Shown here one piece after another: positions 36,975-39,029 of a stretch of 64,000 nucleotides of DNA; position 1 is the first letter of the stretch; every line of letters starts with the position of its first letter. Position numbers and translations under genes: made by a program. This DNA is from Desulfosediminicola ganghwensis (GTDB lineage: Bacteria; Desulfobacterota; Desulfobulbia; Desulfobulbales; Desulfocapsaceae): positions 5,217,001 through 5,281,000 of the forward strand of contig NZ_CP050699.1 of the NCBI RefSeq assembly GCF_005116675.2, in the 5' to 3' direction. The notes under the pieces were generated by a model. The model was not told the DNA's origin, ran no database searches, and was given only the letters and a program-made list of their open reading frames with translations.

Positions 36975-36975
36975 A

Positions 36976-37016
36976 ACGTTGGACGTTGGACGTTGGACGT
37001 TGGACGTTGGACGTTG
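36976..37016. repeat. Tandem heptamer (ACGTTGG), almost six copies
   Basis: Five exact copies plus six bases of ACGTTGG start one base after the Nudix stop codon and run into the A tract of the next terminator. Phase-shifted the unit is GTTGGAC, differing at one base from the GGTGGAC array behind dsdA. Such arrays can change copy number by slippage. Confidence 0.93.
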
Positions 37017-37018
37017 AA

Positions 37019-37060
37019 AAAAAAAGGTGCACCTGGAAATTTCCAGATGCACCTTTTTTT
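37019..37060. terminator. Bidirectional terminator, Nudix / typA operon
   Basis: GGTGCA-c-CTGGAAATTTCCAG-a-TGCACC forms a 13-bp stem with one mismatch, flanked by seven or more A on the left and seven T on the right. It can stop transcription from both directions: the panE-HAD-Nudix unit and the typA unit. Confidence 0.9.
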
Positions 37061-37220
37061 ATTTAAGCAGAGTTTGCAGAATCATGAAAGCAACCAGACC
37101 CGCCCCGACGGATCCATAGAGCAGGGCTCAGGGGATGCAGTCGCTTCCGAACTTTCTGGAGATAAGAAAGAAGGTTGAAATTCCAACTACTCCGGATATC
37201 AGCAGGATAAGCAGGTCCAT
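37059..37220 (-). CDS. Candidate small membrane selenoprotein with CxPU motif (in-frame TGA)
   Basis: Nine bases after the typA stop, AAGGTG precedes an ATG at 37220. The frame encodes 30 residues, a TGA at 37128-37130, then 22 more residues and TAA. Read through, the 53-residue product has two hydrophobic helices (about residues 3-20 and 32-52) joined by a short loop SRKFGSDCIP-U, placing the TGA codon as the last residue of a Cys28-Ile-Pro-x31 motif like the CGPC of thioredoxins. A hairpin 12 bases after TGA is a plausible SECIS. The sequence after TGA stays in frame and membrane-like right up to the terminator. Alternatives are a 30-residue protein or a nonsense-mutated gene. I do not recognise the family. 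Confidence 0.5.
37096..37115 (-). promoter_or_regulatory. Candidate bacterial SECIS hairpin
   Basis: On the minus strand GGATCCG (37115-37109) pairs with CGGGTCT (37102-37096), seven pairs including two G-U, around the loop TCGGGG. The stem begins 12 bases and the loop 19 bases after the in-frame TGA, inside the range expected for bacterial SECIS elements (loop about 16-37 bases from the UGA). If the closing G-C pair opens, the loop starts with G, as most do. Confidence 0.45.
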
Positions 37221-37229
37221 GTCTTCACC

Positions 37230-39029
37230 TTAAATCTTGATTCTGGTACCCGTCCTTTTGCGAAGTCTGATCGACTTGGGAGTTACCTCAACCAGTTCAT
37301 CATCATTGATGTAGGCAATGCAATCCTCAAGGGACATAATGGTCGCCGGGGTGAGAACAACCGCATCGTCGGTACCTGAAGCACGGACGTTGGTGAGTTT
37401 CTTGCCCTTACCGGGATTGACCACCATATCGGCGGGACGAGCATTCTCACCGATAATCTGCCCCGCATAAAGCGGTAAGCCTGCTCCTACAAAGAGTTTA
37501 CCGCGATCCTGCAGGTTAAAAAGCGCATAGGCTACGGAAGTGCACGGCTCTTTTACCAGCATCACACCGTTGACGCGGTTGATGATATCACCTGCATATG
37601 GGCCATACTCATGGAAGACATAGGCCATCATACCCATTCCTTTGGTATCGGTCATGAACTGGGAACGATAACCGAGCAAACCGCGGGTCGGAATGTGAAA
37701 CACCATACGAACCATGCCGTTGTTGGTGCTCATCTCTTCTATGGTACCTCTCAGCTTGCCGAGCTTTTCGATAACCGGACCCTGGAATTCCTCGTCCACA
37801 TCGATGGTCAGTTCCTCGTAGGGCTCCATCAGCTTGCCGTCCTCTTCACGCATGATGACCTGAGGGCGGGTGACCTGAAATTCATAATCTTCGCGACGCA
37901 TCTTCTCAATCAGAATAGAGAGATGCAGCTCACCTCGACCGCTCACTTTAAAACCAACTGCATCGGTCAGCGGCTCGTACTGCAATGCCACGTCAGCGAG
38001 AATCTCGCGCTTGAGACGGTCCTCGATATGACGGGAAGTAACGAACTTACCCTCTTTACCGGCAAACGGAGAATCGTTAGGGATAAAGTTCATGGAGATA
38101 GTCGGCGGATCAATGGTGATCAATGGCAACGGCTTAGGATTATCAGCGTCGGTAAAAGTAACACCAACGGTTACATCCTCCATACCGGCAATGGCCACAA
38201 TCTCACCTACACCAGCCTCTTCGACCGCAACCTTTTCATCACGCTCGAAGCGAAAAATCTTGGATATACGGATCGGCTTAATAGAACCGTCACGGCGAGC
38301 AACAGCAATGGGTTGGTTAATCTTCATCCTGCCGTTTACAACCTTACCAATACCGAGACGTCCAAGGTACGGAGAATAGTCGATGGTACCCACCTGCATC
38401 TGCAACTCGGCCCCTTCATCGCCCACCGGAGCAGGGATATGGTCTATGACCATCCTGGAGATCGGGTCCATATTGCCGCCGTCCACGCGCTCATCGCCGA
38501 GCTCGAACAGGCTGTATCCTTCTTTGGCAGAAGCATAAACCACAGGGAAATCAAGAATATCGTCAGGCGCATTGAGTTTTACGAAAAGATCGAACACCTG
38601 ATCGACAACCCAGTCACAGCGAGCTGCGGGTTTGTCTATCTTGTTAATCACCACGATGACAGGCAGATTGTTCTCCAGTGCCTTTTTCAGAACGAAATAG
38701 GTCTGAGGCATCGGGCCTTCCTGGGCATCAACCAGCAGCAGCGCGCCGTCTGCCATACGCAATACACGCTCCACCTGCCCGCCAAAATCGGCGTGACCGG
38801 GGGTGTCGATGATATTAATCCAGTGATCAGCAAAGGCATAGGAACCGTTTTTGGACGTAATGGTGATGCCACGCTCACGTTCAAGATCCATGGAGTCCAT
38901 CAATCGTTCCGAGACCTGCTGATTATCTCGGTACATTCCGGACTGTTTGAAAAGTTGGTCAACCAGGGTGGTTTTACCGTGGTCAACGTGGGCGATAATT
39001 GCCACATTACGTATTTTGCTCTGTTCCAT
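37230..39029 (-). CDS. typA: GTP-binding protein TypA/BipA
   Basis: A 599-residue translational GTPase. G1 is AHVDHGKTT, the switch region RGITITSKN, G3 DTPGHADF and G4 NKIDKPAARCD. Domains follow the EF-G-like order: G domain to about 200, beta barrel to about 300, domains III and V, then the TypA-specific C-terminal domain with GKGKKLTNVRASGTDDA. TypA binds the ribosome and aids 50S assembly and stress adaptation. GAGGAAA precedes the ATG. A small UGA-containing gene follows in the same transcript. Confidence 0.97.
   Translation of the reverse strand: MEQSKIRNVAIIAHVDHGKTTLVDQLFKQSGMYRDNQQVSERLMDSMDLERERGITITSKNGSYAFADHWINIIDTPGHADFGGQVERVLRMADGALLLVDAQEGPMPQTYFVLKKALENNLPVIVVINKIDKPAARCDWVVDQVFDLFVKLNAPDDILDFPVVYASAKEGYSLFELGDERVDGGNMDPISRMVIDHIPAPVGDEGAELQMQVGTIDYSPYLGRLGIGKVVNGRMKINQPIAVARRDGSIKPIRISKIFRFERDEKVAVEEAGVGEIVAIAGMEDVTVGVTFTDADNPKPLPLITIDPPTISMNFIPNDSPFAGKEGKFVTSRHIEDRLKREILADVALQYEPLTDAVGFKVSGRGELHLSILIEKMRREDYEFQVTRPQVIMREEDGKLMEPYEELTIDVDEEFQGPVIEKLGKLRGTIEEMSTNNGMVRMVFHIPTRGLLGYRSQFMTDTKGMGMMAYVFHEYGPYAGDIINRVNGVMLVKEPCTSVAYALFNLQDRGKLFVGAGLPLYAGQIIGENARPADMVVNPGKGKKLTNVRASGTDDAVVLTPATIMSLEDCIAYINDDELVEVTPKSIRLRKRTGTRIKI

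Follow-up and report, generated by a model that had tools for sequence, protein, structure and literature searches.

An apparently new, widely kept family of small membrane selenoproteins with a Cys-x-Pro-Sec motif in Desulfosediminicola ganghwensis and its relatives

Introduction

Behind the typA gene of Desulfosediminicola ganghwensis lies a short hydrophobic frame interrupted by a TGA codon, and the question raised by this locus is whether that codon ends a 30-residue peptide or is read as selenocysteine (Sec) within a longer protein and, in the latter case, what such a protein could do in the membrane. The frame was noticed in a stretch of 64,000 nucleotides (contig NZ_CP050699.1, positions 5,217,001 to 5,281,000 of the forward strand), hereafter the window. 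The original prediction, made from the sequence alone, took its product for an undescribed two-helix membrane selenoprotein of redox function.

The gene and its surroundings

Several parts of that prediction can be read directly from the sequence, namely a small frame behind typA with its own AAGGTG ribosome binding site (37231-37226, overlapping the typA stop) and a TGA as codon 31 in the context Cys-Ile-Pro-TGA, with 53 residues in total. The encoded protein is MDLLILLISGVVGISTFFLISRKFGSDCIPU-ALLYGSVGAGLVAFMILQTLLK; on the minus strand its ATG begins at 37220, the TGA occupies 37130-37128 and the TAA 37061-37059, and 9 nt separate the end of typA from the ATG. The frame was also said to stop at a terminator, and a hairpin of -28.3 kcal/mol (z -8.4) does abut the TAA, although the output of a simple consensus terminator scan does not contain it (37019..37060). 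The features of the locus are as follows.

37230..39029, minus strand: typA, upstream on the same strand (TIGR01394, 853 bits)
37226..37231, minus strand: ribosome binding site AAGGTG, overlapping the typA stop (sequence reading)
37059..37220, minus strand: predicted selenoprotein gene, 53 residues, Sec at 31, stop TAA (sequence reading and homologues)
37152..37214, minus strand: first predicted membrane helix, residues 3-23 (AlphaFold2 model with Cys replacing Sec, pLDDT 70)
37065..37136, minus strand: second predicted membrane helix, residues 29-52, with CIPU at its N-terminal end (AlphaFold2 model with Cys replacing Sec)
37128..37139, minus strand: putative CIPU redox motif, Cys28-Ile-Pro-Sec31 (C-x-x-U in 145 of 145 Sec homologues)
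37128..37130, minus strand: UGA codon 31, almost certainly read as selenocysteine (UGA in 145 of 147 distinct proteins, Cys in the other 2)
37116..37118, minus strand: Tyr35, at Sec+4, the position of VKORC1 Tyr139 (Tyr in 145 of 145 Sec homologues; VKOR alignment; Tyr139 from PMC4555120)
37096..37115, minus strand: SECIS-like hairpin of 8 bp with apical loop CGGG, 20 nt after the UGA (folding; family-wide pairing and covariation)
37019..37060, minus strand: terminator hairpin after the stop (fold -28.3 kcal/mol, z -8.4)

By eye, about five tandem copies of a seven-base repeat of GGACGTT type are also seen at 36975-37016, behind a Nudix gene and just before the terminator.

Homologues and distribution

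The read-through protein matched 50 of 58 genomes (its own and 57 relatives) at E up to 1; the frame has exactly one TGA in 48 of these genomes and takes a Cys form in 2, and the other 8 gave no match. Because homologues carry the same frame, a chance origin of the window frame is excluded. With a profile built from 41 sequences (A1), the family was found in 127 of 146 sampled genomes of the same order, or 99 of 109 among the better genomes; the 19 genomes without a match to A1 include several incomplete drafts. A second order, that of genome G096, which we take to be Desulfovibrionales, carries the family in 47 of 199 genomes according to profile A3, with one TGA in all 51 match rows and no match to A3 in the remaining 152 genomes. 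Twenty loci of this order (19 distinct proteins) were examined, and C-x-P-U and Tyr at +4 are present in 20 of 20. In a whole-phylum sample, A3 was positive in 16 of 395 genomes (15 of the own order and G096), and the corresponding search with A1 was positive in 15 of 297, the second order being understated by A1 alone. Three of these A1 hits, in G082, G124 and G324 (L081, L079 and L080), and a second match in G292 (L082) were examined and rejected as chance.

Reduction to distinct proteins left a set of 147, of which 145 are Sec and 2 are Cys forms; the 145 include one protein from the second order (L078), one start-less fragment that was kept (L186) and one cut at a contig end (L121). Their motif reads CIPU in 58, CTPU in 21, CPSU in 15, CLPU and CMPU in 10 each, CPPU in 9 and CPAU in 7, the rarer variants being CSPU (6), CVPU (4), CPTU (2) and CPQU, CAPU and CSSU (1 each).

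A motif-based pattern run over GTDB genomes yielded at least 117 stretches, where about two chance matches are expected by base count. Among the matches listed, 115 are complete frames of 50-56 residues; of the two incomplete ones, L266 is truncated at the edge of its stretch, and L276 agrees with the family around the motif and beyond it, with no start codon in the range tested. Since Cys, UGA, Tyr and two Gly are fixed by the pattern, these residues are not independent evidence in this set, and the open hydrophobic frame is. The carriers among the matches listed include the cultured strains Desulfopila aestuarii DSM 18488, Desulforhopalus singaporensis DSM 12130 and Desulfofustis glycolicus DSM 9705, together with Desulfopila sp. 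IMCC35008, Desulfogranum mediterraneum, D. marinum and Desulfoprunum benzoelyticum.

Some genomes hold several copies of the selenoprotein gene (G015 with L040, L187 and L188; G379 with L153 and L158; and G505). A record titled Altiarchaeales archaeon IMC4 (L303) encodes a protein identical to a Desulfocapsa copy (L192) and is probably a mis-assigned contig. Another, titled Myxococcota (L263), has a family member, and the family may extend beyond Desulfobacterota unless that contig is mis-binned.

Decoding of the UGA codon

The original prediction had called for homologues with Cys or TGA at the site and had named Trp or Arg there, or a universal end at residue 30, as the outcome that would speak against it. 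Among the 147 distinct proteins the site is UGA in 145 and Cys in 2, and Trp, Arg or an end of the frame occurs in none. The natural Cys forms, CPMC in L066 (G037) and CPAC in L065 (G050), place Cys exactly at the UGA site. Both belong to family f2 and are without the Tyr at +4 and without GxG, so the loss of Sec goes with a wider change. Profile A1 held Cys at the Sec column, and Cys forms should therefore be found equally well. The frame extends 19-25 codons past the UGA in all 145 distinct Sec homologues (L121 being cut by the contig end), and in 187 pairs of 75-95% nucleotide identity the differences at codon positions 1/2/3 number 361/149/737 after the UGA, against 805/483/1742 before it. 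This third-position bias of the changes after the UGA indicates that coding selection continues past it.

It is scarcely credible, given these data, that the UGA is a true stop, leaving either a 30-residue single-helix peptide or a gene broken by a nonsense mutation: TGA is read so by the standard code and the table-11 ORF has 30 aa, but the comparative data already refute this reading, as the frame runs on in 145 of 145 Sec homologues with a third-position bias, no other stop occurs at the site and two relatives have Cys there.

Of the machinery for Sec insertion, whose selA, selB, selC and selD genes the original prediction proposed to look for, a SelB of 384.7 bits and a tRNA-Sec of 75.4 bits, both over their cut-offs, are present in the genome. 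In the own order, SelB exceeds its cut-off in 126 of 146 genomes. A rescan of the 20 genomes below it found 8 with SelB fragments, as judged by match positions (G046, G353, G398, G405, G428, G431, G436 and G447), and eight of the remaining 12 genomes have a clear tRNA-Sec of 69-74 bits, in a search that scored only 150 candidates per genome at a cut-off of 47 bits. In the genus g251 (three genomes sampled, G404, G445 and G448), no SelB exceeds the cut-off and the small selenoprotein is also absent; the best tRNA-Sec candidates there score 47.1 bits in G404 and 45.9 and 46.6 bits in G445 and G448, around the cut-off of 47 and far from the 69-74 bits of the clear ones. One genome counts against the Sec reading, because in G402 the UGA form is present and neither a SelB over the cut-off nor a tRNA-Sec was found, in a draft that is 92% complete and with 150 of 263 tRNA candidates scored. 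No match to selA or selD was found within the window and about nine loci.

Read-through of UGA occurs in bacteria, and the codon might thus be read as another residue, such as Trp by near-cognate reading or by a suppressor tRNA. We give this next to no credence: across 147 distinct proteins a sense codon occupies the site only twice and is Cys both times, the genome has SelB and tRNA-Sec, a SECIS signal lies downstream and Cys stands at -3 in 145 of 145. Judging from these comparisons, we regard it as close to certain that this is a real, conserved selenoprotein gene, and the small protein almost certainly carries selenocysteine. In vivo, codon 31 would be decoded by SelB and tRNA-Sec, aided by the hairpin just downstream.

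A SECIS-like hairpin in the coding region

A 7-bp hairpin had been predicted 12 bases after the TGA, in the position of a bacterial SECIS. The hairpin (37115-37096) does begin 12 nt after the UGA; it folds as 8 bp, or 9 by an exhaustive stem search. The hairpin fits the SECIS geometry (loop CGGG, spacing 20), a criterion taken from section 5 of the review PMC13188914, yet it is equalled or bettered in stability by 87 of 200 shuffles, and a different hairpin wins when other segments of the same sequence are folded. On these grounds the window hairpin alone would prove nothing and the case rests on the family. The folding of the bases after the TGA, which the prediction had suggested as a check, thus yields a signal across the family, and for the single window sequence nothing better than shuffles.

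In the first register (counting the T of UGA as 1), nucleotides 16-23 pair with 28-35, and the loop has GG at 25-26 in 143 of 145 sequences. Over the 145-row alignment (142 distinct rows), 82.2% of cells pair, against 75.9% in shuffled and at most 56% in slid versions. Covariation reaches 0.307 against 0.202 in shuffles, with 0 of 500 attaining it, although related sequences can beat shuffles without any structure, and slid versions and the synonymous-codon test are better controls. At third bases, the pairs 18-33, 24-27 and 21-30 exceed all 2000 shuffles and four other pairs do not (144 sequences). When the codons are replaced by redrawn synonymous ones, nucleotides 13-39 rise in mean energy from -8.75 kcal/mol in the real sequences to -5.34; the mean z is -1.40 for the hairpin region versus -0.16 to -0.65 for control stretches, and the published bacterial SECIS geometry is found in 85 of 145 sequences where 21 are expected.

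Another group uses a second register, in which nucleotides 24-30 pair with 36-42 (covariation 0.325 versus 0.245). By strict counts over the 145, the first register only is found in 81, the second only in 34, both in 5 and neither in 25. Judged from these alignments, the change of register is an evolutionary shift of a putative recoding element inside one gene. In the second-register group (34 of 145; L050, L054, L055, L077, L104 and others) the hairpin lies about 7 nt further downstream and reads GGTATG-GGTCT-CATATC. When both orders were searched exhaustively, a qualifying ungapped stem was present in 115 of 165 sequences against 45 expected (range 32-55). The other 50 have no ungapped SECIS stem of the required kind in this search, which excluded bulged stems, and may use bulged ones.

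Protein architecture and conserved residues

The two-helix membrane protein that had been predicted is also what AlphaFold2 returns (74-row alignment of the window protein and named records, Cys in place of Sec): helices at residues 3-23 and 29-52, with a pLDDT of 70 and a pTM of 0.34. In this hairpin of modest model confidence, helix 2 has Cys at its edge and holds Sec in its first turn. The 145 Sec proteins, a set found without the pattern, all have Cys at -3, Tyr at +4 and Gly at +10; Gly at +8 and an aromatic residue at +14 are each present in 143, and Pro at -1 in 119. We consider that the product is very probably a membrane hairpin of about 6 kDa whose second helix begins with a Cys-x-Pro-Sec pair.

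The likening of this pair to the thioredoxin-type motif turned out to be loose. An alpha/beta thioredoxin fold around the CxxC was considered and set aside, the predicted structure being two helices only, and the closest motif found is the CxxC-xxx-Tyr helix end of VKOR. A Foldseek search of the model against the PDB gave nothing useful (one irrelevant hit), and a PDB sequence search with the family profile gave no match. In 176 of 186 members the loop is richer in Lys/Arg than either end, and the positive-inside rule would accordingly place the motif at the cytoplasmic face. We do not rely on this charge-based sidedness because most VKORs of the relatives also carry a Lys just before their CxxC.

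Relation to known selenoproteins

That the protein is not a described one agrees with the databases, in which no fitting family was found in Pfam, in NCBIfam or in the catalogue of the 2026 review PMC13188914, as far as its Table 1 describes the families. In hmmscan against NCBIfam and Pfam, no match of the window protein exceeded a cut-off. For 41 members, the best single-member hits were NF002552 (DsbB) at E 4.7e-4 and PF22282 (CydS) at 0.002, the Pfam results covering the best 25 of 34 families. Judged by the descriptions in Table 1 of PMC13188914, which lists 119 prokaryotic selenoprotein families and subfamilies, none is a membrane protein of two helices and about 53 residues, and no NCBIfam or Pfam model of a listed family turned up for the window protein. 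Among the new families that the 2025 deep-Sep work (PMC12013277) predicted in genomes of Desulfosediminicola and Desulfosarcina, none in the text examined corresponds to this selenoprotein by name or model. With the known prokaryotic families the present one shares a single Sec, the frequent CxxU arrangement and a bacterial SECIS downstream.

In the open-licence full-text literature, we found no report of this protein, of a VKOR with selenocysteine or of a half-VKOR; subscription papers and supplements may differ. The eukaryotic selenoproteins K and S are likewise small membrane selenoproteins, with their Sec near the C-terminus, outside the membrane. It is very likely that these membrane hairpins make up a new selenoprotein family, which was probably overlooked because its product is so small and the UGA shortens the apparent gene to 30 codons.

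Comparison with VKOR and DsbB

The window protein reads CIPUALLYG at the start of its second helix, and the last-helix motifs of VKORs from relatives read CLLCLASYG, CILCIFSYG and CIMCLLSYS; the residue four after the second Cys is Tyr in five and His in two of seven such VKORs. An hhalign comparison of the family with VKOR aligned this same stretch over 25 columns (probability 41, E 2.8e-4). Its score of 25.2 was reached by 0 of 200 column shuffles that keep the CxxC (mean 11.0, maximum 23.0) and falls to 20.5 when the Tyr column is masked. In human VKOR the quinone-reacting residue is Cys135, the second Cys of the CXXC (PMC7895805), and Tyr139 is critical to catalysis (PMC4555120). In the alignment, Sec stands at the position of Cys135 and the conserved Tyr at that of Tyr139.

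The hairpin thus resembles the last helical hairpin of VKOR (PF07884) in its short loop, in a CxxC or CxxU that opens a membrane helix and in the Tyr four residues later. VKOR differs in having four helices instead of two and a second Cys pair in an outer loop, whereas the window protein has one Cys and one Sec only; the selenoprotein, for its part, has a GSxGxG in the second helix and Sec in place of the quinone-attacking Cys. The VKOR motif faces outward, to the ER lumen in the human enzyme (PMC7895805), while that of the selenoprotein would be cytoplasmic by loop charge. The window protein has no match to PF07884 at E up to 10, and PF07884 is absent from the best 25 of 34 Pfam families for 41 members. 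With no PF07884 match seen, two helices and no second Cys pair, we do not claim membership in VKOR. The own genome has no VKOR or DsbB match, and of the 58 genomes 10 and 9, respectively, have one.

DsbB (PF02600), a quinone-linked membrane protein, also has its CxxC at a helix start, and a DsbB-type rather than a VKOR-type half-unit would draw on weak single-member hits, each from 1 of 41 members, to NF002552 (E 4.7e-4), NF003354 (E 0.055) and PF02600 (E 0.068). Most DsbB of the relatives, however, read CVLCWYQR, and the profile comparison was negative, with a probability of 0.3 against the DsbB of relatives versus 41 for VKOR; we therefore rejected DsbB as the closest relative and regard a half-unit of its type as very unlikely.

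A possible partner hairpin in one clade

Directly upstream of the Sec gene in a Pseudodesulfovibrio-like clade lies a gene for a further two-helix protein, about 62 residues long and lacking the Cys-Sec pair. It is present in 10 of the 20 second-order loci examined and in L291 (L331, L332, L334, L335, L338, L341-L344, L346 and L291), with a spacing from a 4-nt overlap to a 52-nt gap, and its C-terminal end is YYILNVVFGSGRTGWP or close to it. For two of these hairpins, Pfam and NCBIfam scans returned no match over a cut-off. A profile built from 9 of the 11 (leaving out L335, identical to L334, and L341, which is longer and diverged) aligned with the selenoprotein over 53 ungapped columns in hhalign (probability 92, E 5.7e-7, 0 of 200 within-segment shuffles), a result to be read with the caution that hydrophobic hairpins can score falsely high and that within-segment shuffles control for this in part. 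A similar, inactive hairpin beside an active one is what would be expected from a two-hairpin, four-helix assembly, and this sequence likeness suggests that the upstream hairpin may be a partner of the selenoprotein.

Proposed function and rival explanations

The selenoprotein probably passes electrons within the membrane, and a quinone-linked "half-VKOR" is the best mechanism we can offer, one that we put forward tentatively. Two hairpins would come together, in the manner of half-VKOR units, as a four-helix bundle; the selenolate would attack a membrane quinone beside the conserved Tyr, the upstream Cys would resolve the intermediate as a Cys-Sec bond, and a thiol partner would recycle that bond, so that the protein would couple the quinone pool to thiol chemistry. 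The dimer, the quinone, the direction of electron flow and the side of the membrane are all conjectural parts of this scheme. Carried further, the family may represent the first selenium-dependent quinone-thiol enzyme of the VKOR/DsbB kind built from one hairpin, in which two 53-residue hairpins, or one of these and a hairpin lacking the Cys-Sec pair, form the quinone site with Sec for the quinone-attacking Cys; we consider this bolder version rather doubtful.

Among the alternatives, a membrane selenol peroxidase or thiol reductase acting without quinone survives best and is possible, if on the unlikely side. Here the CxPU would reduce lipid peroxides or protein disulfides and a soluble thioredoxin would recycle it, for which the CxxU at the helix start and the cytoplasm-facing loop (by charge) would be suited, and redox functions are thought to be served by most uncharacterised selenoproteins (PMC13188914); the conserved Tyr at +4 and the VKOR-like register would be left unexplained. 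The hairpin could instead transfer a metal, selenium or sulfur ligand in the manner of small mercury transport proteins, its Cys-Sec pair binding a soft ion with no electron cycling. A mercuric transport selenoprotein with C/SxxU stands in the published list (Table 1 of PMC13188914) and the small two-helix size would fit, but PF02411 is absent from the best 25 of 34 Pfam families for 41 members and no metal-resistance gene was recognised by eye among the neighbours examined, which makes this reading clearly unlikely.

The neighbouring genes bear on a further alternative. The survey covered 190 distinct proteins, the 147 together with 43 added from the pattern matches listed. Directly upstream of 100 of them lies typA, directly downstream of 65 lies mtnA (S-methyl-5-thioribose-1-phosphate isomerase, on the same strand as the selenoprotein gene, e.g., in L047, L050 and L066), and 25 have neither, 8 of these being near the end of a sequence stretch and 8 outside the own order. 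In the 20 second-order loci, no match to typA or mtnA was found within 1.5 kb flanks; 8 of the 20 have, downstream and on the opposite strand, a gene judged MazG-like by eye. The adjacency of mtnA was considered as a functional clue and yielded no mechanism. The linkage to typA that the original prediction proposed therefore stands for the window and for 100 of 190 distinct members and fails as a general rule, and typA is probably not a functional partner, because 65 members precede mtnA and 25 are beside neither. A TypA-dependent translation-stress peptide, functionally tied to typA, would be in keeping with those 100 loci, but with the 65, the 25 and the 20 second-order loci against it we set a functional link aside and hold such a peptide to be highly improbable. 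A metallo-beta-lactamase-like hydrolase (by eye) was seen to start 10 nt after the selenoprotein gene in two loci of f6 genomes (L142 and L146).

Significance

The selenoprotein family is real, apparently new and widely kept, and it adds one family to the 119 listed in Table 1 of PMC13188914. The near-fixation of Sec, in 145 of 147 distinct proteins, suggests that Cys cannot easily replace it, and the family is well suited to the question of what selenium can do and sulfur cannot. The quinone-linked half-VKOR reading, if right, would tie the use of selenium in these bacteria to their respiratory membrane and offer a model with two helices for how VKOR and DsbB originated. Should the bolder version, with Sec taking the place of the quinone-attacking Cys, also be true, these proteins would count among the smallest redox enzymes that are coupled to the quinone pool of respiration, and would serve as a living model for the way in which the four-helix VKOR and DsbB could have arisen from duplicated hairpins.
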